From Ruminococcus sp. (GTDB taxonomy: Bacteria; Bacillota; Clostridia; Oscillospirales; Acutalibacteraceae), in NCBI GenBank assembly GCA_017473775.1, contig JAFUJH010000012.1, positions 1 to 59,147 of the forward strand: a stretch of DNA of 59,147 nucleotides. The letters are read 5' to 3'. The translations under genes were made by a program, and so were the position numbers. The notes beneath the pieces were generated by a model that was given only the letters and a program-made list of their open reading frames with translations, was not told the DNA's origin and did not search any database. Shown piece after piece: positions 19,639-39,823 of the stretch. The number at the start of each line of letters is the position of its first letter. Positions within the stretch are counted from its first letter, which is position 1.

Positions 19639-20181
19639 TTATTTCAAAAACTTCTCTTTAATCTTTGTTCTTCTGAGCAGCTCTGTCAGTAGTGTGCCGG
19701 CAATTATGCCTGCCGCACCCTGCACGGAGTTGCCAAGGACTGATGCAAAGGCACCTGCACCGTAGCCAAGGATGAGAGCTTCAAACACCAGGTATCCCAG
19801 AACCATAATCACCTCGGCAAGAACTGCACCCAGAGCGGTGAAAAGGAAAAAGAGGTTTGGCTTTTTATCTGAGATTTTGCGGAAAATGTGAAGCACAAGC
19901 CATACGCATAGAGCCATCAAAGCTTTGATAATAAAGGTTGCAGGTGCATACTGAGCATATCCTGCAAAGATATCCGCCAAAGCTGAGCCAAGCCCTGCGG
20001 CAGCTGCCCCGTACACAGGACCTAAGAAGAATGCAGACACCACCACCACAGCATCGCCTAAGTTGAGGAAGCCTCCTGTGGGGGTAGGAATCTGAATTAC
20101 CATTGTTGCCACACAGCACAGAGAAGCAAATAGTGCTGTAAGCACGGTTTTGATAAGAGCGTTTGATTTACCTGATTTCAT
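19639..20181 (-). CDS. ECF transporter S component (substrate-binding membrane protein)
   Basis: A 180-aa polytopic membrane protein of about six helices. The segment IPTPTGGFLNLGDAVVVVSAFFLGP near residues 30-55 is typical of the ECF S-component group, with an ADIFAGYAQYAPATFIIK loop. Such proteins bind a vitamin or precursor and share an energising module (EcfA, EcfA', EcfT) encoded elsewhere. The substrate cannot be named; HmpT- or PdxU-like pyrimidine or pyridine substrates are possible. The start is ATG at 20181 with AAGG upstream; the frame extends to 20325 but passes through the promoter. The leader is only about 30 nt, so no riboswitch is present. Confidence 0.85.
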   Translation of the reverse strand: MKSGKSNALIKTVLTALFASLCCVATMVIQIPTPTGGFLNLGDAVVVVSAFFLGPVYGAAAAGLGSALADIFAGYAQYAPATFIIKALMALCVWLVLHIFRKISDKKPNLFFLFTALGAVLAEVIMVLGYLVFEALILGYGAGAFASVLGNSVQGAAGIIAGTLLTELLRRTKIKEKFLK

Positions 20182-20218
20182 TTTATATACCTTCTTTCTT
20201 GGTAGGTAATTCGCTTGT

Positions 20219-20247
20219 ATTATACTCCTGTGATTTTCATTTTGCAA
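20219..20247 (-). promoter_or_regulatory. Promoter of the ECF S-component gene
   Basis: TTGCAA (20242-20247), a 17-nt spacer and TATAAT (20219-20224) on the minus strand. Confidence 0.65.
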
Positions 20248-20322
20248 TATTTTTGAGAAAATTTTGCAAATTATGACAATATAGGCACAATTTGCTCCAA
20301 ATTTATGGAGCGTAATTTTGGT

Positions 20323-20358
20323 CAAAAAACCGCCTTCCCGAACAACGGAAAGGCGGTT
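20323..20358 (-). terminator. Terminator after the LicC-like gene
   Basis: Stem ACCGCCTT/AAGGCGGT (20329-20336/20350-20357), followed on the minus strand by TTTTTTG. Confidence 0.85.
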
Positions 20359-20375
20359 GCTGTATGTAAACTTAA

Positions 20376-21266
20376 TTATACATCGTAGGTTTTGTCCAGA
20401 GCCTTGAGCTCATTGTAGGTGTCGATTTCGATGATGTCATCGAAGGAGCATTCTCTGACATGAACCTTGTAGTCATCCTTGAAATACTCAAGGGCTACCT
20501 GGTCCCAGTATCTCTCCTTGCCGCCGGGAGCCTGGAACACCTGCTTGATGTGGCCCACAAGTCGAGCACCGTCAGCCTCGTCCCAGTAGGAGATGCCAAA
20601 CATATGGTGGCAGTTTACGCCGCCTACAAGGAGCTTCCTGATAACACCGCTGTCGTTTGTCTCGAAGCACCAGTCGTCTGTTTTGTCAACAGGCACTGCA
20701 AGGTAGTTGGAGCAGTACTGGTATTTGGTGATGAGCTTGGGATTGTAGAGGAATAAGTCACCCTCCAGCACATAGGCATTCTTGAGCAGATAGCTTGCGC
20801 ATACTGCAGAGGAAATGTTGTTAGCCTCGTTGTACTGGGGATTCTCGATAAACTTAATCATAGGATAATCGTACAGAAGCTGGTCAAATTGCTCTGCAAG
20901 GTAGCCTCTGACTATGTAAATCTCGGGGATTCCGGCGGCAACAACAGCGTCCAGCAGTGTGGTGATGATTCGCTTGCCGTTGACGCGGATAAGGGGCTTG
21001 GGGGTGTTGAGTGTTACAGGCACCATACGGGAGCCGAAGCCTGCCGCAATGAACACAGCACGCTTTACTCTGTAGGGCTCAAGGGCGTCAAGACCTGCAG
21101 GGGTAATCACGCCGTCGTTAAGGTAGCCCATATTTGTCAGCTCTGCAATGCACTTGTTGACTGTGCCCACAGACATTTTGGTCTCAGTTGCTATCTCACG
21201 CTGAGGGTGGGACTCGTGCTTGTCAGAAAGATAAACCAGCACATCAAACTGCTTTTTTGTAATCAT
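20376..21266 (-). CDS. LicC-like nucleotidyltransferase with N-terminal winged HTH
   Basis: A 296-aa fusion. Residues 1-65 form a MarR-like winged HTH (QREIATETKMSVGTVNKCI). Residues 68-290 form an NTP-transferase domain with AAGFGSRMVP at the nucleotide loop, TPKPLIRVNGK, and the metal-binding EGDLF. The pattern NPQYNEANNISS resembles LicC, the CTP:phosphocholine cytidylyltransferase used to decorate teichoic acids. The HTH-transferase fusion is a known family, but whether it regulates DNA is untested. The position beside a YidC-glycerophosphotransferase fusion suggests it makes a CDP-activated alcohol or sugar donor for a surface polymer (inference). GGTGA precedes the ATG. Confidence 0.85.
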   Translation of the reverse strand: MITKKQFDVLVYLSDKHESHPQREIATETKMSVGTVNKCIAELTNMGYLNDGVITPAGLDALEPYRVKRAVFIAAGFGSRMVPVTLNTPKPLIRVNGKRIITTLLDAVVAAGIPEIYIVRGYLAEQFDQLLYDYPMIKFIENPQYNEANNISSAVCASYLLKNAYVLEGDLFLYNPKLITKYQYCSNYLAVPVDKTDDWCFETNDSGVIRKLLVGGVNCHHMFGISYWDEADGARLVGHIKQVFQAPGGKERYWDQVALEYFKDDYKVHVRECSFDDIIEIDTYNELKALDKTYDV

Positions 21267-21342
21267 AAAATCACCGCTTATTTTTCAAACTTTTATTTGG
21301 AAAAATGAACACTAAACCTCAGAAGTTTACGGTTTATGAGGT

Positions 21343-21379
21343 ATAAGAAACCCTCTGCGTATTTGCCTTGGCAGAGGGT
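21343..21379 (-). terminator. Terminator after the small membrane protein gene
   Basis: Stem ACCCTCTGC/GCAGAGGGT (21350-21358/21371-21379) with a moderate T run (TTTCTTAT) on the minus strand. Upstream-strand sequence also forms ACCTCA..TGAGGT (21315-21342). Confidence 0.65.
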
Positions 21380-21420
21380 CTTATTAATTTACTGAAAATG
21401 AACAAAGGGGAGAGACAGGC

Positions 21421-21627
21421 TTACTGGTCCTCGCCGAAAGAGCCTGTAACCTCAGCCTCAACTTCCTTATGCTGGTTTTCGTCAATGCCGAGCTTGTCAG
21501 AAATCTTCTTCTTTGCACGACGGAAATAAACAGCCACAACTGTACCGATGGTAACTGCAACGCCTGCAACAGCGGCGAACACCATGGACATACTTGCTGC
21601 ATCAATGTATCCTGTAATAATCTGCAT
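21421..21627 (-). CDS. Small single-pass membrane protein
   Basis: A 68-aa protein. Residues 10-35 form one hydrophobic helix (AASMSMVFAAVAGVAVTIG..), then a basic patch RRAKKK and an acidic, soluble tail (DKLGIDENQHKEVEAEV). No named family is recognised. GGAGGAA precedes the ATG, and a near-consensus promoter (21682-21710) and a terminator frame it, so it is a real, separately transcribed gene. It lies between the YidC-glycerophosphotransferase fusion and the LicC-like gene, so it could be an accessory subunit of that system (inference). Confidence 0.75.
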   Translation of the reverse strand: MQIITGYIDAASMSMVFAAVAGVAVTIGTVVAVYFRRAKKKISDKLGIDENQHKEVEAEVTGSFGEDQ

Positions 21628-21681
21628 TTTTTATTCCTCCGTTATATTTGTTGAATATTGTTGACTTTTGTGTACATCAAC

Positions 21682-21710
21682 ATTATAGAGCAGTGTATAA
21701 AAAAAGTCAA
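21682..21710 (-). promoter_or_regulatory. Promoter of the small membrane protein gene
   Basis: TTGACT (21705-21710), a 17-nt spacer and TATAAT (21682-21687) on the minus strand, about 50 nt before the start codon. Confidence 0.7.
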
Positions 21711-21743
21711 TTGTTAATATATTGTCCCGTAAATTGGGAGATT

Positions 21744-23861
21744 TTATTTTTTCTTAGCTTCCTGCTGACGCTTTACAATCTGTCCGTAGATGTACTTAGC
21801 ACCTGCAAGACCGCTGCTGCCTACATTGAAGATGTTGCGGTGCAGTGCCTCGTCAATCTGCTTCTCATACTTCTTGGGGTTAGAGAGCAACTCTGCAACT
21901 ACATCGGGAACAGTAGAGAGCTTGTCTGTATCAATTGAGATACCAACCTGGTCCTTCCAGCTGATTTCTGTGGGAACAAAAGGAATCTTCTCGTAGTTGG
22001 GGTTGAGTACCTTCATGGGAGTGTTGATGAACATTGAGGGCTTCTTGGTTGCATAGGAGAACTCGTATGCAATACCTGACCAGTCGGTAATAAGCAGGTC
22101 GGACTCCCAGATTGTGCGGTTGGAGGAGAAGTCCATCTCGATAATAAAGTCGTCTCCGTCGCATCCCTCGTACTTCTTCACAATAGCGTCCATCTTAGCA
22201 GGGAAACGCTTGATGTACTCGGGGTGGGGTCTGAGTATTACCTTATTACCCTTGTGGAGGAGTCCCTCCATCAGCTCGTCAAGGCAGTACTCAAGGATGT
22301 TGTCCTCCTGCCAGGAGGGAGCAAGGAGAATCTGCTTTTTCTCGTGCTCAACCTTCTCCATCTCTGCGTACATCTTGCACAGGTTGTCGATAACGCCGAA
22401 GCCCACTGGCACCAGAGTTTTCTCGGGCAGATTATAAACCTGCTCTGTAGCTCTCAGCTCGTCCACCTGATGAGGACCAACGCAGAAGATAGTGTCAAAG
22501 TGGTCATATGCACCCTCACGCACACACATTGTGGTGCTGGTGGGACCGTGGAAGGTGTAGATATACTCAATGTCCTTTCTTACATAGGAACGCTTGATGT
22601 AATACTTCTCAAGGTCGGGAGTGGTCATCAGGACGATGTCTGCGTCCATTTTCATCATAAAGGTGATAATCTTCTTAGGGCCGATGTAGTATGCCTTGAT
22701 GCGGTCATTCTTCTCTGCCTTTTCAAAGATTGCATCCTTGGGGTCGTTGGTTACATAGTGGATGACGAGAGTGGTATTCTTCAGAAGCTCGTTGATGATG
22801 TTCTCAAAATACTTGTAGAATCCGCTTTTCTCAGAATAAATAACAAGGTGCTTGTTGGCAATAGAGAAGAAGCGCTTGTAGTCTGCACGCTCACGCTTTG
22901 CGTTTTCGTCACGCTTGAACAGACCCTTCTTCTTGTCGCCGTCCAGTGCCTCAATAGCGGCAAGCTCTTCACGGCTTGCCTCAAGCTCCTCGTAGTCTAC
23001 ATACTTTTTGGGAGAGATAAGTGCATTGAGCAGCAGAAGCTGAAGTACAGCGATAATGTTGCTGACTACCCAGTACAGAGCGATACCTGCTGGAACAAAG
23101 AATCCAAGGTAAAGAGAAAGACCAACGGAGAATGCCATGGTGCCCCACTTGTTGCCCTTGCCCTGCTCTGCCTGCAGAACATTGATTTTGTTCTGAATAA
23201 AGCACAAAAACCAAGAGGACAGACCTGCAATGATGGGAGCAAGCACATAAATCCAGTTGGAGCTTACTGTCTGGGATGGAGTTGCAGACAGGTCAAAGCC
23301 GAAGAAATCCAGGTCGAACTCCTGTGCGTTCTTGATAGCAAGAGCACCCTCCTCAGTCTTTGCAATCTCTGCAAAAGCCTCGGGGTAGTTCTTGATAGCA
23401 TACATAGCGTCAATCTCTACAGAGTTTGACTCAAGGTTAATATCCATAACTGTAGCCGCAGTGGTGTTGATATCGTTGATTACAGTGTCGGGAGTTTTAA
23501 ATATATATGAAAAGGGATGATAGATAACTGCAACAACGCCCAGAAGCAGTACAATCTGGATTGCAAGTGGAATAAGGCTTGCAAAGGGGTTGTATTTCTG
23601 CTCCTTGTACATCTTGGACTGTTCCTCGCCGATACGCTCTGCATCGCCGTAGTACTTAGCCTTGAGCCTGTTGATAGCAGGCTGGATTTTTACAATCTTG
23701 ATGGAATTCTTGTGTACCCAGATACCTACAGGGAGAATGATTATCTTTGTAATCAGGGTAAACAGAGAGATGGCAAGGCCGTAGTCAGAAACAAGTGCAT
23801 GAGTAAACTGCATAATGTATCCGAGGGGCAGAGCCAGCCATGAGATTATCATATCATACAT
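21744..23861 (-). CDS. YidC/Oxa1-type membrane domain fused to CDP-glycerol glycerophosphotransferase
   Basis: A 705-aa fusion. Residues 1-310 are a YidC/Oxa1-like domain: SLFTLITKIIILPVG in the first core helix, a coiled cytoplasmic hairpin (KIQPAINRLKAKY), PFASLIPLAIQIVLLLG, an 80-residue outer loop and further helices to about 300. After a charged linker, residues about 340-690 form a TagB/TagF-type glycerophosphotransferase with YTFHG (H438), APSWQED, RPHPE (H546) and DWSGIAYEFS. The transferase would add polyol-phosphate from a CDP donor at the inner membrane face. The groove Arg of YidC is Lys39 here. A housekeeping yidC is expected near the origin, so this one is probably dedicated. 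GGAGGAAAG precedes the ATG. Confidence 0.88.
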   Translation of the reverse strand: MYDMIISWLALPLGYIMQFTHALVSDYGLAISLFTLITKIIILPVGIWVHKNSIKIVKIQPAINRLKAKYYGDAERIGEEQSKMYKEQKYNPFASLIPLAIQIVLLLGVVAVIYHPFSYIFKTPDTVINDINTTAATVMDINLESNSVEIDAMYAIKNYPEAFAEIAKTEEGALAIKNAQEFDLDFFGFDLSATPSQTVSSNWIYVLAPIIAGLSSWFLCFIQNKINVLQAEQGKGNKWGTMAFSVGLSLYLGFFVPAGIALYWVVSNIIAVLQLLLLNALISPKKYVDYEELEASREELAAIEALDGDKKKGLFKRDENAKRERADYKRFFSIANKHLVIYSEKSGFYKYFENIINELLKNTTLVIHYVTNDPKDAIFEKAEKNDRIKAYYIGPKKIITFMMKMDADIVLMTTPDLEKYYIKRSYVRKDIEYIYTFHGPTSTTMCVREGAYDHFDTIFCVGPHQVDELRATEQVYNLPEKTLVPVGFGVIDNLCKMYAEMEKVEHEKKQILLAPSWQEDNILEYCLDELMEGLLHKGNKVILRPHPEYIKRFPAKMDAIVKKYEGCDGDDFIIEMDFSSNRTIWESDLLITDWSGIAYEFSYATKKPSMFINTPMKVLNPNYEKIPFVPTEISWKDQVGISIDTDKLSTVPDVVAELLSNPKKYEKQIDEALHRNIFNVGSSGLAGAKYIYGQIVKRQQEAKKK

Positions 23862-23924
23862 TTCGCTTTCCTCCGTTTTCAGGACTATGCAAAGAACGCA
23901 TAAATCCACATTATATCACTCTAC

Positions 23925-23954
23925 ATTATACTCCTAAGAGAATGCAGTTGTCAA
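23925..23954 (-). promoter_or_regulatory. Promoter of the YidC-glycerophosphotransferase gene
   Basis: Consensus TTGACA (23949-23954), an 18-nt spacer and TATAAT (23925-23930). A second TATAAT lies at 23909-23914. Confidence 0.65.
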
Positions 23955-24110
23955 TTGTGGGCGAATACAGTAAACGCCGCAAACAGACGCCCTGAAATAG
24001 GCATATTGACAGTAAATGTCAGGATTTGTAACTTTTGTGTTGTTGCAAAAAGGGTTTTACTGTGGTATATAGGAGATGTATTATTATGTTTTATGAAGAA
24101 GGGTACGCCT

Positions 24111-25313
24111 GTGAATAAAAAAACAAAAATCATACTTTCAGTATCAGCAGGGCTTATGGTGCTTGTGTTTGTGCTTGTGATGGCTTTGTCCTTGAGTGCA
24201 GAGCCACTGAGTACCGCCACCCCTGATGAGGTGCCTCAAAATACCGCGGTTGAGACAACTGTCACTGCTCCCATAGAGGATGGACCGCTGACCCTGTCTT
24301 TTATCGGAGACTGCATACTGGGCAGTGAGTCGGGCAAGTCCCGTGATGGAAACTTCACTTATACAGCAGAAACAAAAGACCACAGGTATTTCTTTGAGAA
24401 GGTATATGATGTGCTCTCAAAGGATGATCTGACCTTTGCAAATTGCGAGGTTGTACTCTCTGACAGAAACCTGGAGAAAACTCCCAAGGATTACAGCCCT
24501 GCCTTCTGGTTTATAGCACCTGCAATAAACGCAGATATCCTGAAGCTTGGCGGAGTTGAGGTGGCAGGCGTTGTGAATAATCATGTAAACGATTACGGCG
24601 ACGAGGGCTACAAAGATACTGTAGACGCCCTGAAAGCACAGGGACTGTATGTGGGAGAGAATCTGACGCCTCTGTATTTTGAGGAAAAAGGCATAAAAAT
24701 CGGTGTGCTGTACTGTAACCTGTGGTCTCAGTACAATACATATTATATAGAGCAGGCACTGGAGACAATGCAGGACAACTGTGATTATAGGATAATCTTC
24801 TTCCACGGAGGTACAGAGGCTGTCCACGAGCCTGATAACTATAAGATTGACGCCTGCAGATACCTGGCGGAGTCAGGGCTATGCGATTTGATTATCGGCA
24901 GTCATCCCCATGTGCTACAGCCTATGGAGGTTGTAAACGGAGTACCCATTGTGTATTCACTGGGAAATTTCTGTTATTCCGCAAACACTTATCCTGAGAA
25001 CAGAACAATTATCTTTCAGGCAGAGCTTTATAAGGAGGACGGCAGTATCCGTACAGAGACAAATATAATCCCCTGCTATGTATACACAGGATATGAGAAT
25101 AACTGGCAGCCTGCGATTGTAGAGGACGAGGGAGTGAAGGCGGAGATTATGGGGATGATGACTGCAAAGGTTGAGCATCAGACAGAGCCGTCTGCTACTA
25201 CAGAGCCGGAAACCGAGCCTGTAACTCAGGAGGAGGCTTATGCTCCCCCTGCAGAGCCTGACCCTACCGAAGGTGCGCAGGATGTGTGGGAGACTCAGGT
25301 AATGGAGTATTGA
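24111..25313 (+). CDS. CapA-family (PGA_cap) surface-polymer protein
   Basis: A 400-aa protein with an N-terminal membrane anchor (residues 5-25), a short Thr-rich linker and a CapA/PGA_cap metallophosphatase-like domain. That domain shows SFIGDCILG (metal motif), FANCEVVLSD, GVVNNHVNDYG, FFHGG and GSHPHVLQP, then VYSLGNF. The C-terminal tail is Glu/Pro/Thr-rich. CapA proteins take part in poly-gamma-glutamate or other capsule export, but many Clostridia members have no capsule operon, so the role is open. The GTG at 24111 with AAGAAGGG upstream was preferred to upstream in-frame codons. It is divergent from the YidC fusion and may share its surface role. Confidence 0.82.
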   Translation: MNKKTKIILSVSAGLMVLVFVLVMALSLSAEPLSTATPDEVPQNTAVETTVTAPIEDGPLTLSFIGDCILGSESGKSRDGNFTYTAETKDHRYFFEKVYDVLSKDDLTFANCEVVLSDRNLEKTPKDYSPAFWFIAPAINADILKLGGVEVAGVVNNHVNDYGDEGYKDTVDALKAQGLYVGENLTPLYFEEKGIKIGVLYCNLWSQYNTYYIEQALETMQDNCDYRIIFFHGGTEAVHEPDNYKIDACRYLAESGLCDLIIGSHPHVLQPMEVVNGVPIVYSLGNFCYSANTYPENRTIIFQAELYKEDGSIRTETNIIPCYVYTGYENNWQPAIVEDEGVKAEIMGMMTAKVEHQTEPSATTEPETEPVTQEEAYAPPAEPDPTEGAQDVWETQVMEY

Positions 25314-25365
25314 TAAAGCCGCAGAATCTCGTGTGTACGCAAAAATAAAAATTTCAAAAAAGATA

Positions 25366-25394
25366 TTGAAATTGCGTAAACTTTGTGGTAATAT
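25366..25394 (+). promoter_or_regulatory. Promoter of tRNA-Thr
   Basis: TTGAAA (25366-25371), a 17-nt spacer and TAATAT (25389-25394), 33 nt before the tRNA. Confidence 0.5.
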
Positions 25395-25426
25395 AGTCGG
25401 GTAGCACAAAATGCAATCCCGAATAT

Positions 25427-25502
<76 letters not shown>

Positions 25503-25503
25503 A

Positions 25504-25537
25504 AAACAAGCACTTCCTTTGGGAGTGCTTGTTTTTG
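25504..25537 (+). terminator. Terminator of tRNA-Thr
   Basis: Stem CAAGCACT/AGTGCTTG (25507-25514/25524-25531) followed by TTTTTGTG. Confidence 0.85.
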
Positions 25538-25541
25538 TGTT

Positions 25542-25716
25542 TGTGTCCGTAAGGGCACAACATCGTTTTGCAACGCAGTTGCAAACATCTTTTGACCGAC
25601 CGGTCAATATCGTTCTAATTGACGGACACAAAACGATGTTATGTTTTGCATAAACAGTGTTGCCTGAGGCAAACGATGTTCACCACAGGTGAAACGAAGT
25701 TGCACTTCGTGCAAAT
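25542..25716. repeat. Modular hairpin array B (linker AACATCGTTT / AAACGATGTT)
   Basis: The linker is CATCG-type in the left half (25559, then degenerate) and CGATG-type in the right half (25631, 25671, variant at 25692). Hairpins between linkers include TTGCAAC GCA GTTGCAA (25568-25584), TTGACC GACC GGTCAA (25592-25607), TTGCC TGA GGCAA (25660-25672), TTCACC ACA GGTGAA (25679-25693) and TTGCAC TTC GTGCAA (25700-25714). It fills the gap between tRNA-Thr and the next gene. Confidence 0.75.
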
Positions 25717-25749
25717 ATATGATAATATGCAACCGTGGGGTGATATAAG

Positions 25750-26100
25750 ATGAAAGAAGATAAATTATCTGACCTGTCTATGGAATTGTCTGTGGATATT
25801 CTTAACCTTGCAAAAGAGCTCAGAAAAAAGTACGAAACCGTTATCTCAAATCAGATAAGCAGAAGTGCGACCAGTATTTGCGCCAACATTGCAGAAAGTA
25901 AGTACGGGCACAGCCGCGCGGATTTTATTGCAAAGCTTGAGATTGCACTAAAAGAAGCCAGTGAAACAGGCAAGTGGCTGGAGATGCTTCTGAAAACAGA
26001 TTATATTACGGAAGAGATCTACAAGAAATTAAACAAAACTTGCTCAACCATCAGAATTTTGCTGATTGCCTCAATCAAAACTGCAAAGAGCAGACTTTAA
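25750..26100 (+). CDS. Four-helix-bundle protein (S23-intervening-sequence type)
   Basis: A 116-aa all-helical protein of the TIGR02436 'four helix bundle / S23' family, marked by SNQISRSATSICANIAES at about residues 37-54 and by a regular heptad pattern. Members are often encoded in rRNA intervening sequences or beside mobile repeats, and the function is unknown. GGGGTGA precedes the ATG. It directly follows hairpin array B, so linkage with that repeat is possible. No 23S sequence is present here. Confidence 0.85.
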   Translation: MKEDKLSDLSMELSVDILNLAKELRKKYETVISNQISRSATSICANIAESKYGHSRADFIAKLEIALKEASETGKWLEMLLKTDYITEEIYKKLNKTCSTIRILLIASIKTAKSRL

Positions 26101-26146
26101 TAACTATTCCAAAGCCTAACTGTTCATTGCAATACATCCCAACACA

Positions 26147-26175
26147 TTGAATTTTTTATTTCAATGTGATATATT
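26147..26175 (+). promoter_or_regulatory. Promoter of the tandem-repeat lipoprotein gene
   Basis: TTGAAT (26147-26152), a 17-nt spacer and TATATT (26170-26175). Confidence 0.45.
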
Positions 26176-26229
26176 ATAGACACAGTCAGGAAATGACTGA
26201 TTAAAAAATAAAAATTGGAGGAATCAAAA

Positions 26230-26895: not shown

Positions 26896-26922
26896 TACAG
26901 AATCAAAGTCATAAATAAAGAG

Positions 26923-26960
26923 AAAGACCTCGTTCCAAAAACGGAATGAGGTCTTTTTGT
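26923..26960. terminator. Terminator between convergent genes
   Basis: A 14-bp stem, AAAGACCTCGTTCC paired with GGAATGAGGTCTTT (one mismatch), then TTGT (26923-26936/26943-26956). Confidence 0.85.
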
Positions 26961-27393: not shown

Positions 27394-27398
27394 TACTA

Positions 27399-31040: not shown

Positions 31041-31143
31041 GTGTACGGATATAATAAAATTTTTACAGATTTTGCACCCAAATGAAAAATCCTCCTGTTA
31101 TTAAAGACAGAAGCGCTTCAAAGCGAAAGTGAGGTTAAAGGAA

Positions 31144-31683
31144 ATGGATAAGCTTGTGCATAAGCTGAAAAAGCACGACGAGAAAGCACTAATACAAATT
31201 ATGGATCAGTACACGCCCCTTGTAGCAACGATTGTTTCAAATGTTGCAAGGGGGAATATGAGCAAAGAGGATATTGAGGAAACCGTGTCGGATGTGTTTG
31301 TAACTCTCTGGAATAATTCAGAGAAAATTCAGGACGGAAAGTTGAAAGGCTATATCTGCAGTATTGCACGCACCCGTGCAATAAACAAGGCGAACTCCCT
31401 TGGCAATAAAGCTATACTGAACATTGACGACTACGACCCTCAGGACGATTTCTCCATTGAAGATGCAACGGATAAAAAAGATGTTGAACGGGAACTGAGA
31501 GAAGTAATCGGGGAAATTCCCGAGCCTGACAAAGAGATACTTATACGACACTACTACTTCTGCGAAACCGCGTCAAAAATATCGGAGAATATGAGCATCA
31601 ATATTGAAACCGTTAAGTCAAAGCTAAGACGCACAAGAGATAAATTAAAAAAGATACTTACAGAAAGGGGCTATACATTATGA
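31144..31683 (+). CDS. ECF-type RNA polymerase sigma factor
   Basis: A 179-aa sigma-70 family protein. Region 2 (about 10-80) contains DIEETVSDVFVTLWNN, and region 4 (about 115-170) contains EPDKEILIRHYYFCETASKISENM followed by a recognition helix ending KSKLRRTRDKLKK. It directs RNA polymerase to a small set of genes, probably including itself. The ATG at 31144 has GAGG and AAAGGA upstream; an in-frame GTG lies at 31129. The next gene overlaps it by 4 nt (ATGA) and encodes the likely anti-sigma factor. Confidence 0.9.
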   Translation: MDKLVHKLKKHDEKALIQIMDQYTPLVATIVSNVARGNMSKEDIEETVSDVFVTLWNNSEKIQDGKLKGYICSIARTRAINKANSLGNKAILNIDDYDPQDDFSIEDATDKKDVERELREVIGEIPEPDKEILIRHYYFCETASKISENMSINIETVKSKLRRTRDKLKKILTERGYTL

Positions 31684-32975
31684 AAACAACTCTGAGAGAA
31701 GTTTTTTGGAATATAGATGACAGCACATACAGCTGTGAGCATACAGATATCGACTGCGAAAAGGTCAAGGCGGATGTGTTGTCCAGAATCAAATCAGACA
31801 CTGCAAAGAAAGCCCGACCCAAAAAGCAGTTCAGAACCATACTGATTGCGGCGGTGCTGGTTGTGATTCTCGCTCTGGGAGCAACCGCTATCTATGCATC
31901 AGGCAGTATTGAGTATATCTTCAAGGAGTTCTTCGGCGGCAATATGAATTCAGCGGGGCTGTACGACTCAGGCAAGGTCAACATTACAAGCGGCGACGAG
32001 GAACTGAATATAAACCTTTTGGGTGTTACAGGTGACAGCAAGAAGATTTATGCCGCAATTGAAGTAACAAAAAAGGACGGCACTGCCTTTACTGATGAAG
32101 GCTATTCAAACGCTTATCACATTCTGGATAATCCCGAAGATTTCGGCTGTTACTTTGAATGTACTGATAAGGACGGAAACTCTCCCGAGAGGTGCAACGG
32201 CAAAGTGGAATACAGCCTCAGCGAGGACGGAAAGGTACTGAAACTGTGCGTTCTTGCTATGAACGGTGACGAAAATATGGACCTTAAAGACGGCACAATG
32301 TATCTTAGCCATAACCGCTTTGGCGCTGTAAAAATACTGGAGAAAATCGCCAAAAGAGTTGATATGGAGCTTGCAAATCAGATGGGTGCCGGTTACGGCT
32401 GGGATAAGGATAGTTCTGAGATTGATGAACTTATAGCGAAGGCAGAAGCATCTCTGGATGAACAGGGCATCACTGACTATACCACCTATACCACAAACGA
32501 CAATGAATTGTGCATTGTGCAGAGAAAGGTGTTTTCTCTTTCCTTTGAGATGAACTTTGAGCTCAGTTACGAAACAGACCGCAACATCACAAAGACCCTC
32601 ACTGCACAGGATGCACCCGATTACATCACAGAAGATGCAATTGAAGTGAAAATGGAGATCACGCCCTTCGGTGTGAATCTTTACGGCAAGTGTGACCCTG
32701 CTATCACATCTGCACGGCCTGATAAAAGCTACTGCTACAAGGTTATGGATTACAACTCAAGACCCAGAGTTGTACTTGAGGACGGCACAGTGTATTATCT
32801 TTATCAGGGAGGACTTGACACAGAAGGAGTAAAGGGCGACTACTACACAGAAGAAAAGGTGTTCAATCTGTCCACCAACAACGGACCTCCGCATTACGAG
32901 GCACAGGTAAACCTTATTAATCCTGAGGATGTAGTTGAGGTAGTCATCAACGGCAATACGATTTACACTAAGTAA
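31680..32975 (+). CDS. DUF4179-type membrane anti-sigma factor
   Basis: A 431-aa single-pass membrane protein. The cytoplasmic N-terminus (1-50) is followed by one helix at about 52-74 (FRTILIAAVLVVILALGATAIYA) and a large extracytoplasmic domain with ELNINLLGVTGDSKKIYAAIEV, typical of DUF4179 proteins paired with ECF sigma factors in Firmicutes. It should hold the sigma factor at the membrane until an outside signal arrives. Translational coupling with the sigma gene (ATGA) supports a fixed ratio. The signal is unknown. Confidence 0.85.
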   Translation: MKTTLREVFWNIDDSTYSCEHTDIDCEKVKADVLSRIKSDTAKKARPKKQFRTILIAAVLVVILALGATAIYASGSIEYIFKEFFGGNMNSAGLYDSGKVNITSGDEELNINLLGVTGDSKKIYAAIEVTKKDGTAFTDEGYSNAYHILDNPEDFGCYFECTDKDGNSPERCNGKVEYSLSEDGKVLKLCVLAMNGDENMDLKDGTMYLSHNRFGAVKILEKIAKRVDMELANQMGAGYGWDKDSSEIDELIAKAEASLDEQGITDYTTYTTNDNELCIVQRKVFSLSFEMNFELSYETDRNITKTLTAQDAPDYITEDAIEVKMEITPFGVNLYGKCDPAITSARPDKSYCYKVMDYNSRPRVVLEDGTVYYLYQGGLDTEGVKGDYYTEEKVFNLSTNNGPPHYEAQVNLINPEDVVEVVINGNTIYTK

Positions 32976-32993
32976 TCATAATTTCCTCCAAAC

Positions 32994-33025
32994 AAAAACT
33001 CCACCGATTATCGGTGGAGTTTTTC
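32994..33025. terminator. Bidirectional terminator between convergent genes
   Basis: Stem AAAAACTCCACCGA/TCGGTGGAGTTTTT (32994-33007/33011-33024), with a run of Ts on each exit strand. Confidence 0.88.
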
Positions 33026-33036
33026 GGTTGTTCGGT

Positions 33037-33642: not shown

Positions 33643-33670
33643 ACATTACCTCCTCAAGGTTATATGTAAA

Positions 33671-33700
33671 AGTATATCATTCACAGGCAAGGTGTGTCAA
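33671..33700 (-). promoter_or_regulatory. Promoter of the short lipoprotein gene
   Basis: TTGACA (33695-33700), an 18-nt spacer and TATACT (33671-33676). Confidence 0.65.
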
Positions 33701-33802
33701 TCCGTGAGCAAGGCGGTGCTCAGAATATGTTGCAATATTTGTCGGTGGCTTCATATAATTTATAAACTTGGATTTTTACTTGAATTTAATGTAGAAAAAC
33801 TA

Positions 33803-33831
33803 TTGAAAAATGGAGAGAAAAGCCGTATAAT
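33803..33831 (+). promoter_or_regulatory. Promoter of the Fe-S scaffold / GGGtGRT operon
   Basis: TTGAAA (33803-33808), a 17-nt spacer and TATAAT (33826-33831), about 50 nt before the start codon. Confidence 0.65.
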
Positions 33832-33882
33832 ATCCCTGTATGAGTTATCTCAACTTTAATTTCAGAAAGGAGTAGCAACAAA

Positions 33883-34575
33883 ATGAACTATTCACATGAA
33901 GTACAGAAAATGTGCGTTGTTGCAAAAGGACCTAAGCACGGTCCCGCACCTATCCCCGAAGAGGGCAAATGGGTAAAATCCTATCAGATTTCCGACATCT
34001 CCGGTCTTTCTCACGGTGTAGGCTGGTGTGCACCCCAGCAGGGTACATGTAAGCTCACACTCAATGTTAAGAACGGTATTGTGGAGGAGGCTCTGGTTGA
34101 GACTCTGGGTTGTTCCGGTATGACTCACTCCGCTGCTATGGCTGCAGAGATTCTTCCCGGCAAGACTCTCCTTGAGTGCCTTAACACAGACCTTGTTTGC
34201 GACGCTATCAACACAGCTATGAGAAACATCTTCGAGCAGCTTGCTTACGGCAGAAGCCAGACAGCATTCTCCGAGGACGGTCTGCCCATCGGTGCAGGTC
34301 TTGAGGACCTTGGTAAGGGTCTCCGCTCACAGGTTGGTACAATGTTCTCTACAAAGGACAAGGGTGTTCGTTACATGGAGATGGCTGAGGGCTATGTCCT
34401 CAAGACAGCTCTGGACGAGAACAACGAGGTTATCGGCTATCAGTTCGTTAAGCTCGGCAAGATGATGGAGGATATCCGTCACGGCATGAGCCCCGACGAG
34501 GCATATAAGAACAACATCGGTCAGTACGGTCGCTTTGACGGCGCAGCTAAGTACATTGACCCTCGTGAAGAATAA
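33883..34575 (+). CDS. Iron-sulfur cluster assembly scaffold-like protein (NifU/IscU N-domain family)
   Basis: A 230-aa protein of the NifU-N-like scaffold group that travels with GGGtGRT proteins. Conserved cysteines are in GWCAPQQGTC (about 48-57) and ETLGCSGMTHSA (about 75-86), replacing the standard IscU set. It may bind a metal or cluster. AAAGGAG precedes the ATG. It is 18 nt upstream of the GGGtGRT gene with one promoter for both. Codon choice (AAG, AAC, ATC, GAG heavily preferred) suggests high expression. The target of the scaffold is unknown. Confidence 0.85.
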   Translation: MNYSHEVQKMCVVAKGPKHGPAPIPEEGKWVKSYQISDISGLSHGVGWCAPQQGTCKLTLNVKNGIVEEALVETLGCSGMTHSAAMAAEILPGKTLLECLNTDLVCDAINTAMRNIFEQLAYGRSQTAFSEDGLPIGAGLEDLGKGLRSQVGTMFSTKDKGVRYMEMAEGYVLKTALDENNEVIGYQFVKLGKMMEDIRHGMSPDEAYKNNIGQYGRFDGAAKYIDPREE

Positions 34576-34593
34576 TAAGGGAGGTTAATAGTA

Positions 34594-35595
34594 ATGGCTG
34601 TAACATTTGAAAGTATGGACAGAAGAATGCCCAAGATCAATGCTTGCATGGCTGAGTACGGCATCAAGGATCTTGAGGAGGCAAGAGCAATCTGTCTTGA
34701 GAAGGGCTTTGACCCCGATGAAATCGTTAAGGGCGTTCAGCCCATCGCATTTGAGAACGCTTCCTGGGCATACACACTGGGTTGTGCAGTAGCAATCAAG
34801 AAGGGCTGTACTACAGCTGCTGATGCTGCTGAGGCTATCGGTGTAGGTCTTGAGGCTTTCTGTATTCCCGGCTCTGTTGCAGAGCAGAGAAACGTAGGTC
34901 TTGGTCACGGTAACCTGGGCGCAATGCTCCTCAGAGACGAGACAAAGTGCTTTGCATTCCTTGCAGGTCACGAGTCCTTTGCAGCTGCAGAGGGTGCTAT
35001 CGGTATCGCAAGAAACGCTAACAAGGCAAGAAAAGAGCCCCTCCGCGTTATCCTCAACGGTCTTGGCAAGGATGCTGCATACATCATTTCCAGAATCAAC
35101 GGCTTCACATATGTTGAGACAGAGTTTGATTACTTCACAGGCGAGCTGAAGATTGTAGAGGAGAGAGCATTCTCCGACGGCGAGAGAGCAGCAGTTCGTT
35201 GCTACGGCGCAGACGATGTTCGTGAGGGTGTTGCAATTATGCAGTTCGAGAATGTAGGCGTTTCCATCACAGGTAACTCCACTAACCCCACAAGATTCCA
35301 GCACCTGGTTGCAGGTACTTACAAGAAGTGGGCTATCGAGAACGGCGTTCAGTACTTCTCAGTAGCATCAGGCGGCGGCACAGGCCGTACACTCCACCCC
35401 GATAACATGGGTGCAGGTCCTGCTTCCTACGGTCTCACAGACTCCATGGGCCGTATGCACGGCGACGCTCAGTTTGCAGGTTCTTCTTCCGTTCCTGCTC
35501 ACGTTGAGATGATGGGTCTTATCGGTATGGGTAACAACCCCATGGTTGGTGCTACAGTTGCTTGCGCAGTTGCAGTTTACAACGCAATGAAATAA
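34594..35595 (+). CDS. GGGtGRT protein
   Basis: A 333-aa protein carrying the name-giving motif SGGGTGRTLHPDNMGAG at about residues 263-279. Other conserved blocks are GHGNLGAMLL, GHESFAAAEGAIGIARNANKARKEPL and FENVGVSITGNSTNPTRFQHL. The family is widespread in anaerobic Firmicutes next to the scaffold-like gene found just upstream here; its biochemical role is not established. GGGAGG lies upstream of the ATG. The C-terminus (VACAVAVYNAMK) is complete. The strongly biased codons point to abundant expression. Confidence 0.88.
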   Translation: MAVTFESMDRRMPKINACMAEYGIKDLEEARAICLEKGFDPDEIVKGVQPIAFENASWAYTLGCAVAIKKGCTTAADAAEAIGVGLEAFCIPGSVAEQRNVGLGHGNLGAMLLRDETKCFAFLAGHESFAAAEGAIGIARNANKARKEPLRVILNGLGKDAAYIISRINGFTYVETEFDYFTGELKIVEERAFSDGERAAVRCYGADDVREGVAIMQFENVGVSITGNSTNPTRFQHLVAGTYKKWAIENGVQYFSVASGGGTGRTLHPDNMGAGPASYGLTDSMGRMHGDAQFAGSSSVPAHVEMMGLIGMGNNPMVGATVACAVAVYNAMK

Positions 35596-35615
35596 TCAAG
35601 GTTTTGAGCCTTTTT

Positions 35616-35640
35616 GTAGGGGCGATTCACGAATCGCCCG
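35616..35640. repeat. Dispersed hairpin GGGCGATT CACG AATCGCCC
   Basis: A perfect 8-bp stem preceded by GTAGG. It is the type of short palindrome that is dispersed in many genomes of this group. No T run follows, so it is not a terminator. Confidence 0.6.
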
Positions 35641-35662
35641 AATAAACCTAAATTAAATTATT

Positions 35663-35709
35663 AGACCCATCATTTTAAGAAAAATTCCTTGATGATGGGT
35701 CTGTTTTTA
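35663..35709 (+). terminator. Terminator of the GGGtGRT operon
   Basis: Stem AGACCCATCAT/ATGATGGGTCT (35663-35673/35692-35702) then GTTTTTATT. Confidence 0.85.
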
Positions 35710-35811
35710 TTAAAATAACAATAGAGTAAAAAGGGAAATCTAAGAGAAACTGATATTTTATTTTAAAGAATTTGATATGAACAGTTAGACTTGCATATAA
35801 GGAGAAAGTTT

Positions 35812-37047
35812 ATGAATCTGTATATTGATCCGGGAACAGGAAGTATGCTTTTTACAATACTCATAGGAGTAATTGGTGCAGCAATATATTCCCTGAGAAT
35901 GCTTTTTATTAAGCTGAAATTTAAAATTAGCGGAGGAAAAACAGAAACCGATAATAAAAGAATTCCTTATGTGATATTCTCAGACAACAAGAGATATTGG
36001 TCAATATTTGAACCTATATGTCGAGAGATGAACAAAAGAGGCGTAAAAGTTGTGTATATAACAGCCTCTCCTGATGATCCTGCATTAAGTTGTGAATATT
36101 CTAACCTTAAAGTAGAATGTATAGAAAACGAGAACAAACTTTTTACAAGGCTTAATTTCCTTAACGCAGATATAGTTTTATCTACCACACCGGGGCTTGA
36201 TGTTTATCAATGGAAACGCTCAAAAGAAGTTAAGTGGTATGTCCATATACCACATGCAGCTAACGATATAACACTGTATCGAATGTTTGGAATTGACTAT
36301 TATGATGCGATTATGTTATCTGGTGACTATCAGATGGAAGATATAAGGTCACTTGAACATTTAAGAGGATTGCCTGAAAAAGAACTCGTTAAAGTCGGGA
36401 TTCCTTATATGGACGAAATGGCAAAAAGACTTGAAAATAGTTCTAAAGTTTCTGAGCACACTCGAACGGTACTTTTAGCACCTTCTTGGGGACCAAGTGC
36501 TATTTTTGGAGTGTATGGCGGTAAAATAATTGATGCTTTGTTAAAAACGGGATATCGGATTATAATACGCCCTCACCCCCAATCGTTTTCTTCTGAAAAA
36601 GAATTAATGGATAAACTTATGACGGAGTACCCCGAGAATGAAAATCTTGAATGGAACAGGGATAACGATAATTTTGAAGTGTTAAAGCGTGCAGATATTC
36701 TCATTTCCGATTTTTCGGGCGTTACTTTTGACTTTTCTTTGGTTTACAACAAGCCTATTATTTACACTAATCCTAAAATTGATATTAGTGTTTATGATGC
36801 ATGGTGGTTAAATAAGCCTTTATGGACAGCTACAGCGTTGCCAAGAATTGGCAGGGAGTTAACAGACGAAAATATGGAAAATCTTAAAGATGTAATAGAC
36901 ATCTGTATTGATGATTCTCAATATGCAAAAGGCAGAGCGGATGTTAAGGCAGAAACTTGGGCAAATCCGAGTAAAGGAACTGATTGTGTAGTTGATTACC
37001 TTTTGAATAAATATGAAGAACTAAATGTAGTAAAAAAGGAGGTTTAA
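35812..37047 (+). CDS. CDP-glycerol glycerophosphotransferase family protein, membrane-anchored
   Basis: A 411-aa protein. An N-terminal helix (about 9-31, after YIDPGTGS) anchors it. The GT-B type transferase domain has ADIVLSTTP, VHIPHA (H148), APSWG, IIRPHP (H255) and SDFSGVTFDFS, the same blocks as in the YidC fusion at 21744-23861. It should transfer glycerol-phosphate or a related polyol-phosphate from a CDP donor to a growing surface polymer. AAGGAG precedes the ATG at 35812. Its stop is 1 nt before the YidC-sulfatase gene, so the two are cotranslated. Base composition is clearly more AT-rich than the neighbours to the left, which suggests transfer. Confidence 0.88.
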   Translation: MNLYIDPGTGSMLFTILIGVIGAAIYSLRMLFIKLKFKISGGKTETDNKRIPYVIFSDNKRYWSIFEPICREMNKRGVKVVYITASPDDPALSCEYSNLKVECIENENKLFTRLNFLNADIVLSTTPGLDVYQWKRSKEVKWYVHIPHAANDITLYRMFGIDYYDAIMLSGDYQMEDIRSLEHLRGLPEKELVKVGIPYMDEMAKRLENSSKVSEHTRTVLLAPSWGPSAIFGVYGGKIIDALLKTGYRIIIRPHPQSFSSEKELMDKLMTEYPENENLEWNRDNDNFEVLKRADILISDFSGVTFDFSLVYNKPIIYTNPKIDISVYDAWWLNKPLWTATALPRIGRELTDENMENLKDVIDICIDDSQYAKGRADVKAETWANPSKGTDCVVDYLLNKYEELNVVKKEV

Positions 37048-37048
37048 A

Positions 37049-39823
37049 ATGAATTTTTTATCTATACTGGAAAATATTTTTATTGGGCCTCTGAAGATAT
37101 TGTTTGAATATATATTTGAAATTGCATATGCATTTACATATAATCCTGGCCTTTCTATTGTTTTCTTGAGTCTGTTGATAAACATTCTGGTGCTTCCTTT
37201 ATACAAACGCGCTGATGCAATGCAAGAAGAGGCAAGAGTTATAGAGAATAAGCTCCATAACGGAGTGTCGCATATAAAAAAGTCTTTCTCGGGTGACGAG
37301 AAGATGATGATATTGCAAACCTATTACAGACAAAACAATTATAAACCAACTGATGCGTTAAAAGGTTCGGTGTCCTTGCTTTTAGAGATTCCGTTTTTTA
37401 TGGCTGCGTATCAGTTTTTGTCCCATTTAAAAATTTTAAGTGGGACATCATTTGGACCAATAAAGGATTTGGGTTCACCGGATGGATTGCTGATTATTGG
37501 GGGAATAGCAATAAATGTGCTCCCGATTTTAATGACTCTTGTAAATATAATTTCCAGTGCCATTTATTTAAAGGGTTTTCCCTTGAAAACCAAGATTCAG
37601 TTATATGGAATGGCTTTGTTTTTCTTGGTCTTTCTTTATTCATCACCTTCCGGACTAGTCTTTTATTGGACAATGAACAATGTTTTTTCTTTGGTTAAAA
37701 CTATTTTTTATAAAGTGAAGAACCCCAAAAGAGTTATTTGTGTTATTATGGCTGTTTTGGGTGTTGCTATAATAGGTTTTAGCTCCTTTTTGTTCTCCGG
37801 AACATTAGCCAAGAAAGTAGCTTTGATTCTGTTCGGTATACTAATGGTTGTTCCTTTAGGGGTTATGTTGTTAAAAGTAAAGATTTCCTGGGTTGCAAAA
37901 TCATCAGGCTTTAAACATAATAAAAAGCTATTTGTGTTGGGTTCGGTATTGCTATCTTTATTGGTGGGAGCGCTGATACCTACTTCGATTATTTCTGCTT
38001 CACCACAGGAGTTTCTGAACCTGTATGATCTTACCAATCCGATGCTGTATGTTGTAAGTACATTGAGTTTATCTATAGGAACATTTTTGGTATGGTTGCA
38101 AGTTTTTTATTGGCTTGCTACACCAAAAGGAAAAGCTATGTTTGATATCCTTATATGGATATTATGCGGAATTATGATAATAAACTATATGTTTTTTGGA
38201 ACAAATTTAGGAACGATCTCTGCAGAGTTGCAATATGAAACCGGAGTGTATTTTACCCTGCAAGAACAAATAATTAATTTACTTGTAATATTTGCTGTAA
38301 TTGTTGTATTTTTTGTTGTCATCAAAAAAATTAACAAAATTGTTGTTCCAGTTTTATTAACAGCAATTATTGCAGTATTAGCGATGTCTGTGGTTAATAC
38401 TGTTACTATAACAAAATCTGTTGCAGAAGTTTCAGATGTTGATATGTCTAAAATGCCAACATACACCTTAAGTAAAGAAGGGAAAAATGTTGTAGTAATA
38501 ATGCTGGATAGAGCAATGGGGGAATATTTTCCGTACATAATTAATGAAAGTAAAGACTTATTAGAGCAGTACGATGGATTTACTTACTATTCTAATACAG
38601 TATCGTTTGGTGGCCACACGATTTTTGGAAGTCCATCGCTAATGGGTGGATATGAGTATACTCCGGTGGAGATGAATAAAAGAAGCGATGAGCCTCTTGA
38701 AGAAAAGCATAATGAGGCACTTAAAGTTATGCCGGTGTTATTTGATAACGAAGGCTATGATGTTACTGTGTGCGATCCGCCATATGCCGGGTATAGAGAA
38801 ATACCAGACTTAACCATTTATGATGAGTATGAGAACATTCAAACATTTATAACCGAAGGCAAGTTTCTTGATGAAACTCAAAAAAGCACATCTGCACAAA
38901 GTAATCATCGCAATTTTTTCTGTTTAAGCATAATGAAGTGTATGCCCGTTTGTGTTCAGCCTGTTTTGTATGATAGAGGCATATATTTTGAACCGGCGTC
39001 CAGTGAATCAAACGCTTATTCTATTCAGACAGCGGAAAGTATGTCAGTGGCAAGTGGATATAAAAAAAGTTTTATGGAAGCTTATAATGTTTTGTTGAAT
39101 TTGGAAAATATGACAAATGTTTCGGATACAACAGACAATACTTTTTTATTCCTTGCTAACAATACAGCCCACGAAAATGTAATTTTGCAGGAGCCCGATT
39201 ATGTTCCCGCTTATCATGTGGATAATTTGTTATATGATTCAGAGAATGCTGAAAGATTTACGGTAGATGGAGAAACATTGTCGGTAACAAATAGTACACA
39301 AATGGGTTCGTATCATGCGAATGTTGCTGCAATAAAGAAAATAGGTAACTGGTTGGATTATTTGAGAGAAAATGATATTTATGACAATACACGGATAGTC
39401 ATTGTTTCAGATCATGGATTTCCAACCTACCAGAACGAAAAGCTGATAAATGGCGAGCCCGCAGATACCTATAAAGATGCAGAGTTTTTCTATCCTTTGC
39501 TTTTAGTAAAAGACTTTGATGGTACAGGATTTTCAACATCTGACGAGTTTATGACAAACGCAGATGTTCCTACCTTGGTAACAAAGGATTTAATTCAAAA
39601 CCCTATAAATCCGTTTACAGGAAAAGAAATAAATAACGATGAAAAAACAGAGCACGAACAGTTTATAATTCTTTCTGATAAGTGGAATATCAGTGAAAAC
39701 AAAGGGAATACTTATCCCAAGGCAAGATGGGCCAGTGTTTCCCAAGATTTGTGGGACAAGGATAACTGGGGTTTTTATGAAGAAGAAATTGTGCTAAAGG
39801 AACATCAATTCCCAGAAAATTAA
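37049..39823 (+). CDS. YidC/Oxa1-type membrane domain fused to sulfatase / LTA-synthase-like domain
   Basis: A 924-aa fusion. Residues 1-225 form a YidC-like domain: SLLINILVLPLYKRADAM, a coiled hairpin, SVSLLLEIPFFMAAYQFLS and FYWTMNNVFSLVKTIFYKV. Another block of about seven helices (230-460) follows. Residues about 470-900 form an extracellular alkaline-phosphatase-superfamily domain with metal-site D487 (VIMLDR), nucleophile candidate T524 (GGHTIFGS) and D788-H789 (VSDHGF). This layout resembles LtaS, which polymerises glycerol-phosphate outside the membrane. The groove Arg of YidC is Asn45 here, so insertase activity is doubtful. AAGGAGG precedes the ATG. It forms an operon with the upstream glycerophosphotransferase. 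The gene is AT-rich. Confidence 0.86.
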   Translation: MNFLSILENIFIGPLKILFEYIFEIAYAFTYNPGLSIVFLSLLINILVLPLYKRADAMQEEARVIENKLHNGVSHIKKSFSGDEKMMILQTYYRQNNYKPTDALKGSVSLLLEIPFFMAAYQFLSHLKILSGTSFGPIKDLGSPDGLLIIGGIAINVLPILMTLVNIISSAIYLKGFPLKTKIQLYGMALFFLVFLYSSPSGLVFYWTMNNVFSLVKTIFYKVKNPKRVICVIMAVLGVAIIGFSSFLFSGTLAKKVALILFGILMVVPLGVMLLKVKISWVAKSSGFKHNKKLFVLGSVLLSLLVGALIPTSIISASPQEFLNLYDLTNPMLYVVSTLSLSIGTFLVWLQVFYWLATPKGKAMFDILIWILCGIMIINYMFFGTNLGTISAELQYETGVYFTLQEQIINLLVIFAVIVVFFVVIKKINKIVVPVLLTAIIAVLAMSVVNTVTITKSVAEVSDVDMSKMPTYTLSKEGKNVVVIMLDRAMGEYFPYIINESKDLLEQYDGFTYYSNTVSFGGHTIFGSPSLMGGYEYTPVEMNKRSDEPLEEKHNEALKVMPVLFDNEGYDVTVCDPPYAGYREIPDLTIYDEYENIQTFITEGKFLDETQKSTSAQSNHRNFFCLSIMKCMPVCVQPVLYDRGIYFEPASSESNAYSIQTAESMSVASGYKKSFMEAYNVLLNLENMTNVSDTTDNTFLFLANNTAHENVILQEPDYVPAYHVDNLLYDSENAERFTVDGETLSVTNSTQMGSYHANVAAIKKIGNWLDYLRENDIYDNTRIVIVSDHGFPTYQNEKLINGEPADTYKDAEFFYPLLLVKDFDGTGFSTSDEFMTNADVPTLVTKDLIQNPINPFTGKEINNDEKTEHEQFIILSDKWNISENKGNTYPKARWASVSQDLWDKDNWGFYEEEIVLKEHQFPEN

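Follow-up and report, generated by a model that had tools for sequence, protein, structure and literature searches.

The 59,147-nucleotide stretch of Ruminococcus sp. DNA analysed here (contig JAFUJH010000012.1; hereafter the window) carries two separate loci in which a YidC domain is fused to an enzyme domain. At the first locus, YidC is joined to a TagF-like transferase (P0003), accompanied by a small membrane protein and a LicC/PntC-like cytidylyltransferase (P0002). At the second, a TagF-like transferase (P0004) and a fusion of YidC with a sulfatase-fold enzyme (P0005) are encoded one base apart on the same strand (Table 1). The window's genome (G000; G codes denote the genomes searched and L codes the mapped stretches or loci) is a 2.46-Mb draft in 95 contigs. 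It encodes three YidC proteins, one housekeeping and two in the window, and two PF04464 proteins, both in the window.

Table 1. Features of the two loci in the window.
Feature	Coordinates	Strand	Remarks
ECF-transporter S component, riboflavin-type	19639-20325	-	PF07155; adjoins LicC-like gene
LicC/PntC-like cytidylyltransferase (P0002)	20376-21266	-	N-terminal winged helix + NTP transferase
YIDP-type mini membrane protein	21421-21627	-	68 aa; YIDAASMS + one transmembrane helix + basic tail
Promoter-like site 5' of YIDP ORF	21682-21710	-	TTGACT-17-TATAAT, 11/12; consensus match only
Build-1 core, YidC::TagF-like transferase (P0003)	21744-23909	-	YidC aa 43-295; TagF/Glyphos_transf aa ~340-721
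Promoter-like site 5' of YidC::Glyphos	23925-23954	-	TTGACA-18-TATAAT, 12/12 consensus bases; consensus match only
Build-2 TagF-like transferase (P0004)	35791-37047	+	N-terminal YIDPGTGS membrane segment; Glyphos_transf E 6.5e-11
Build-2 YidC::sulfatase-fold (P0005)	37049-39823	+	YidC E 1.2e-23; Sulfatase E 1.3e-7
aa, amino acids; ECF, energy-coupling factor; ORF, open reading frame.

A preliminary description had listed YidC fusions, a free transferase, a LicC-like enzyme and a small membrane protein at the two loci, and the Pfam and structure matches agree with it. P0003 matches 60KD_IMP/YidC (PF02096, E 3.6e-31, aa 43-295) and Glyphos_transf (PF04464, E 4.3e-11, aa 351-627). Both window fusions exceed the gathering score of PF02096 (108.8 and 84.3 bits, cut-off 35), as do both transferases for PF04464 (42.8 and 42.2 bits, cut-off 22.1). 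The small membrane protein that belongs to the machine is the 68-residue YIDP ORF; the product of 19639-20325 is an ECF S component. In P0005, YidC (aa 34-221) is followed by about seven transmembrane helices, counted by hydropathy, and then by a Thr-type domain of the alkaline-phosphatase superfamily (aa ~476-840). Translation of YidC::Glyphos probably begins with the ATG of aa 17 (23861), close to the start of its relatives, and that of the build-2 transferase probably with the ATG at 35812.

Comparison with relatives supports well, at the sequence level, a machine of four parts: a sulfatase-fold enzyme, YidC, a TagF-like transferase and a YIDP mini-membrane segment. Build 1 joins the transferase to YidC and has the sulfatase and the YIDP protein as separate products; build 2 joins YidC to the sulfatase and the YIDP segment to the transferase. 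The earlier observation that the same partners are fused in one place and adjacent in the other is thus extended by the relatives to all four parts. Among 197 genomes of the order, YidC::Glyphos occurs in 10 and a P0005-type match in 8 (in G113 the gene runs into the contig end). A P0005 relative is encoded by 380 genome-contig stretches, from which 79 named loci were kept, and YidC and sulfatase share one open frame in 79/79; these loci overlap the G genomes, L131, L157 and L159 being contigs of G196, G178 and G102. Since the same fusions recur in other genomes, they are not artefacts of a single assembly.

Build-1 loci in relatives comprise a sulfatase-fold protein, mostly of 550-760 aa, a YIDP protein of variable position and YidC::Glyphos. 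The sulfatase is present at 12 of the 14 mapped build-1 loci (it is divergent at L052, reaches only an 18% match at L104, and is missing from the window locus). G000 has two unfused sulfatase copies on another contig (C93, L071), and its PF00884 matches are these two and P0005 only. This unfused sulfatase is homologous to the C terminus of P0005, and the two share their invariant Asp, Thr, His and Asp-His residues. A search for it at E 1e-15 retrieved nine of the 197 order genomes, G000 included, all nine with YidC::Glyphos (Fisher 1e-14, ignoring phylogeny). The tenth YidC::Glyphos genome of the order is G158, in which the adjoining sulfatase is divergent.

The small YIDP protein and the N-terminal YIDP segment seem to replace each other, because a standalone YIDP-type ORF is found at 12/14 build-1 loci, 0/22 build-2 loci and 0/10 control stretches, by a pattern that was written after the family had been seen. 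A YIDPGTGS-type segment opens 20/20 mapped build-2 transferases. YIDPGTGS::Glyphos adjoins YidC::sulfatase in 8/8 order genomes, lies within 400 bp of it in 68 of the 79 named loci, and the build-2 transferase as such is encoded in 18/22 G-genome stretches and 69/79 named loci. Several loci (L107, L111, L115, L116, L152 and L154) hold two to three YidC::sulfatase copies per transferase, L115 having two transferases, as if a single inner enzyme served several outer enzymes.

The trees of the transferase, sulfatase and YidC domains all separate the two builds at high support, although all are unrooted and the sulfatase tree, from which one contig-truncated row was left out, is long-branched. Because three domain trees agree in this split, the builds look old and their parts not freely swapped. 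In the YidC tree, build-1 domains (14 rows, 100/100) stand beside the housekeeping proteins, and build-2 domains (27 rows, 100/100) occupy a long separate branch. Two independent captures of YidC are nevertheless unproven, as a topology holding builds 1 and 2 together was not rejected (approximately unbiased test, p 0.197).

The two builds mostly occur in different genomes. Both are present in 3 genomes of the order set, against 0.4 expected (Fisher p 0.005, a weak result that ignores phylogeny). In a class set of 391 genomes, which overlaps the order set in part, a P0003-type protein occurs in 5, a P0005-type in 12 and both in 2. The sets combined give 14 build-1 and 19 build-2 genomes, 4 with both and 29 carriers in total, at search cut-offs of 1e-20, 1e-40 and 1e-60 that could hide distant relatives. 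The preliminary proposal that the two loci work together in one complex is therefore not borne out, only 4/29 carriers having both. Its own refuting condition was that the loci be found mostly apart and without surface-polymer genes; the loci are indeed apart, but surface-chemistry genes are common beside them.

The identity of these neighbors is informative. In G187 (L044) one same-direction set comprises the sulfatase, YidC::Glyphos, YIDP, LicC with a helix-turn-helix domain (LicC-HTH), and the binding protein, ATPase and permease of an importer. The best NCBIfam models of this importer, tested on the G178 homologues, are those of the 2-aminoethylphosphonate (AEP) proteins phnS2, PhnT2 and PhnU2, all three below the curated cut-offs. 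LicC-HTH with such a phnSTU-like importer lies beside build 1 (L044, L045, L047, L049) and beside build 2 (L054 in G102, L184), and LicC adjoins the importer in G187, G091, G155, G178, G102, G156 and G113. Of the seven non-carriers with the importer, the importer stretches of three were opened (L125-L127, L126 being a 4.4-kb contig), and in none of these does LicC stand beside it.

Phosphonate synthesis genes are likewise found with both builds. Phosphoenolpyruvate (PEP) mutase, Ppd and PntC occur beside build 1 (L104) and build 2 (L115, L196, L204). At L104 (G423), build 1 is followed by genes for a decarboxylase, a PntC-like protein, PEP mutase and an iron-dependent alcohol dehydrogenase (Fe-ADH); at L113 (G307), build 2 is followed by LicC-HTH, a PhnW-like class V aminotransferase, PEP mutase and a thiamine-pyrophosphate decarboxylase. 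A second kind of donor module, LicC with choline kinase and an EamA transporter, accompanies build 2 in G178 and G196. Among the 79 named build-2 loci, LicC-like genes are found at 40, LicA-like at 28, LicB-like at 17 and any donor gene at 43, with 33 of the 49 loci of at least 15 kb having one; these counts depend on the cut-off, LicC falling to 37/79 at 33% identity and LicA to 21 at 50%. A PhnU2-like permease is encoded by 8/15 carrier and 7/182 other order genomes (p 7e-7), and PF13714, a rough marker of PEP mutase, matches 5/15 and 8/182 (p 0.001), both tests ignoring phylogeny. Downstream of one of the two build-2 copies in G307 (L112), genes for a trimethylamine methyltransferase (MTTB), URO-D and a LicC-like protein were also noted.

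These modules recall two known pathways. PntC and LicC make CMP-AEP and CDP-choline (cytidine mono- and diphosphate derivatives), respectively, as described in PMC6697681. With Pnt phosphonyl tailoring (PntC/Ppm), the machine shares PntC-like, PEP mutase, Ppd and Fe-ADH or PhnW-like genes beside both builds; the neighbors reported in section 7 of that paper, however, are LicD-like phosphotransferases or glycosyltransferases, and its main text contains no YidC, glycerophosphotransferase or sulfatase. The lic pathway (LicA-B-C-D) of Streptococcus pneumoniae has in common with build 2 the choline kinase, the EamA-type transporter and LicC, and the logic of carrying a CDP-activated headgroup to the surface, whereas here LicD is replaced or supplemented by TagF-like, YidC and sulfatase-fold parts. 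In a search for LicA and LicD that covered 23 of the 29 carriers, LicD (PF04991) was found in 12 and not in 11, the latter including G178 and G196, which have LicABC. Since these two draft genomes (97% and 85% complete) gave no LicD match, the machine may be able to take the place of LicD.

For the window's organism, a phosphonate appears to be the donor. The best solved relative of P0002 (residues 56-292) is the CTP:phosphocholine cytidylyltransferase 1jyk (E 8e-30), pneumococcal LicC; a further match is 6pd1 (E 5e-12), a PntC fusion. In the LicC tree, reduced from 58 to 55 rows by removing duplicates and short rows, P0002 falls in a 12-row clade (100/99) with nine rows linked to an importer or phosphonates, three unlabelled and none linked to choline, and all 33 choline-linked rows lie outside it. 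P0002 is predicted, from sequence, to be the donor enzyme and to make a CMP-phosphonate, probably CMP-AEP. G000 has two phnSTU-like importer sets (L121, L122), and yielded no PF13714 match at E 1e-30 (PEP mutase) and no LicA-like match at 1e-8 (choline kinase). Given this clade, the two importers and the two negative searches, an imported phosphonate is expected as the donor in G000, most likely AEP or a closely related compound acquired from the surroundings. At L122 (G000:C42), the importer lies beside a PhnW-like aminotransferase and a haloacid-dehalogenase-type protein that reads like phosphonoacetaldehyde hydrolase, possibly for AEP catabolism.

The TagF fold moves a CDP-bound group onto a hydroxyl. 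The AlphaFold model of P0003 (mean pLDDT 84.4, pTM 0.61) finds TagF with CDP-glycerol (3l7k/3l7l) as its best Foldseek matches, with E. coli YidC (6al2) at rank 24; a search of the PDB with the build-1 transferase domain alone gave no match, and the build-2 transferase matched only TarL (8va1), weakly (E 0.0033). The YIDPGTG, RPHP and D-x-S residues of build-2 transferases are invariant in 18 rows. The machine's transferases share with TagF, TagB and TarL the fold, as modelled for P0003, and two motifs, [RK]-x-HP and D-[YFW]-S. They differ from these CDP-glycerol or CDP-ribitol enzymes in being fused to YidC or YIDP and in their donor, which is predicted to be CDP-choline or a CMP-phosphonate.

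In sulfatases, the nucleophile is a Cys or Ser that is converted to formylglycine. The sulfatase-fold enzyme of the machine has Thr at that position in 15/15 rows, with the Thr, Asp, His and DH metal-site residues all invariant, and the Thr aligns with a Thr of MCR-1 (segment match E 2e-4). Among the profile matches, the phosphonate monoester hydrolase 2w8s ranks first and the choline-sulfatase 7oz8 third; LtaS is also among them. The enzyme resembles the Thr-type transferases LtaS and EptA-MCR in its Thr nucleophile, DH motif and extracytoplasmic domain after transmembrane helices; it differs in being fused to, or operon-linked with, YidC, and the sequence similarity is weak.

A basic residue in the hydrophilic groove is essential for Bacillus YidC function. 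This position is K/R in 14/14 build-1 and 21/21 housekeeping domains and N/S/Q/T in 27/27 build-2 domains, being Asn45 in P0005; the 21 housekeeping rows, loci fetched as best P0003 matches plus the genome's own protein, are a biased sample. The likeness to YidC/Oxa1 insertases consists in the domain score for both builds and in the fold for build 1, whereas fusion to enzymes and, in build 2, loss of the basic groove residue set the domains apart. No usable model of P0005 was obtained (AlphaFold mean pLDDT 50.7, 7 rows). By established topology, the C terminus after the YidC domain is cytosolic. The build-1 transferase would accordingly be cytosolic, and the catalytic domain of P0005 would lie outside because seven further transmembrane helices follow YidC.

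Taken together, we lean, by a small measure, to the view that the loci represent a single machine in two builds, which carries small CDP- or CMP-activated headgroups (AEP, other phosphonates, phosphocholine) from the cytosol to the surface. The job would be phosphonate or phosphocholine headgroup transfer rather than a classical teichoic polymer because phosphonate donor genes lie beside both builds and choline genes often beside build 2. For the substrate, the acceptor, the order of steps and the role of YidC we infer the following scheme. A LicC/PntC enzyme would make CDP-choline or CMP-AEP, and the TagF-like transferase, anchored to the inner face through YidC in build 1 and through YIDP in build 2, would load the phosphoryl or phosphonyl headgroup onto a membrane lipid or lipid-linked glycan. 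The groove of the YidC fold might then help the polar headgroup-lipid across the membrane, and the outer-face Thr-type enzyme, LtaS/EptA-like, would take the headgroup via a phospho-threonine and put it onto a surface glycan. YidC is proposed as the crossing path because its fusion partner is the inner enzyme in build 1 and the outer one in build 2. A preprint describes lipid scrambling in vitro by purified YidC and Oxa1 (PMC10491306). In general form, the earlier idea of a surface-chemistry machine with donor synthesis and inner- and outer-face enzymes is retained.

Several observations weigh against this headgroup-transfer reading. No recognised donor gene flanks 36/79 named build-2 loci (16/49 of those of at least 15 kb), LicC is not nearby at 6/14 build-1 loci, and the transferase is absent from L114, L117, L118 and L119 and from 10/79 named loci, a few of which lie at the end of a contig. 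In G000 itself, LicC lies beside neither importer and two LicD proteins could use the same donor, making LicD a real alternative user; one LicD is likewise encoded by G042, where a LicC::LicA fusion adjoins build 2. PF13714 is only a rough marker and no proof of PEP mutase, since control genomes such as E. coli match it, and the enrichment tests are uncorrected for phylogeny. The crossing step is drawn by analogy, and YidC could be a mere anchor or a dedicated insertase; the build-2 YidC has diverged so far that its groove may function differently from that of characterised YidC proteins.

The most serious alternative, possible in our estimation and clearly the less probable, keeps the same genes and donors and makes YidC an anchor, or a dedicated insertase or chaperone for the YIDP protein and the multi-helix sulfatase. 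Lipid-linked repeats would then be decorated in the cytosol, as is thought for LicD, and exported by a normal flippase. The basic groove residue kept by build-1 YidC is expected of an insertase, and the YIDP segment alone seems a sufficient anchor for the build-2 transferase. An anchoring role, however, would not require each build to have a complete YidC, nor that of build 2 to be joined to the outer enzyme, and a YidC without the basic groove residue, as in build 2, is unlike an ordinary insertase. It is unlikely that the end product is a phosphonolipid or phosphatidylcholine-like membrane lipid and the sulfatase-fold enzyme a hydrolase for trimming or recycling of headgroups: the ranking of 2w8s and 7oz8 among the profile matches would fit such a hydrolase, but enzymes of that type use the formylglycine-forming Cys/Ser, and the nucleophile position here is Thr, as in MCR-1.

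Very improbable is the teichoic-acid-like polymerisation of the preliminary description, in which both loci would cooperate, with CDP-glycerol as the donor inside and a polymerase of the LtaS type on the outer side: the TagF:CDP-glycerol and LtaS matches and the lack of PF00884 proteins outside the machine in G000 favor it, but the loci are mostly apart, the recognised donor neighbors are choline and phosphonate genes, indicating CDP-choline or CMP-phosphonate donors, and a LicC-like enzyme is by family no CDP-glycerol maker. The accompanying question of whether carriers lack ltaS has a divided answer among six carriers searched with PF00884, with machine proteins only in G000, G187 and G155, two others in G178 and one each in G141 and G196.

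The surroundings of the loci offer some further observations. The build-2 pair (35791-39823) has a GC content of 0.349 against 0.441 for the window, and 0.7% of 4,033-bp windows are equally low; this A+T richness suggests, though it does not prove, that the locus was acquired. Downstream of it lie genes for glycosyltransferases of the Core-2/I-branching type (39919-40839, minus strand, PF02485) and the WaaS/CpsH type (42950-43957, plus strand, NF053598), which are possible surface-glycan acceptor genes. Two pairs of sigma-factor-like and membrane-protein genes flank the build-2 locus (31129-32975 and 41101-42781) and possibly encode extracytoplasmic-function sigma/anti-sigma systems. A large, secreted protein that resembles glycoside hydrolases and bears two dockerin-like repeats, predicted at 46097-49315 (minus strand), suggests a Ruminococcus-type cellulosome. 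The ECF S component was rejected as a machine partner, having no counterpart in any of the 36 other mapped stretches. As to the promoter-like sites in Table 1, the scan of the region found 19 such sites versus 7.6 expected.

In the open-licence literature, no description was found of a YidC-fused TagF-like or sulfatase system with teichoic acid, phosphocholine or phosphonate, and a YidC-fused headgroup machine in gut Clostridia appears to be undescribed. PMC6697681 terms the phosphonyl-tailoring steps beyond PEP mutase enigmatic; it supplies the activation step and indicates LicD-like neighbors for transfer. The genes described here offer another concrete candidate for this transfer, of phosphonates as well as of phosphocholine, in Clostridia of gut and rumen, among them cultured carriers of build 2 such as Hominifimenecus microfluidus CLA-AA-H215, Mediterraneibacter agrestimuris DSM 111629 and Butyrivibrio sp. 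MB2005. We suggest only tentatively that in these gut Clostridia the YidC fold has been turned into a lipid-headgroup export step, captured twice, with the basic groove residue kept in one case and lost in the other, and served by interchangeable donor modules. The system provides a natural test case for whether YidC/Oxa1 proteins move lipids physiologically, and its two differently fused builds reveal which parts stay together.

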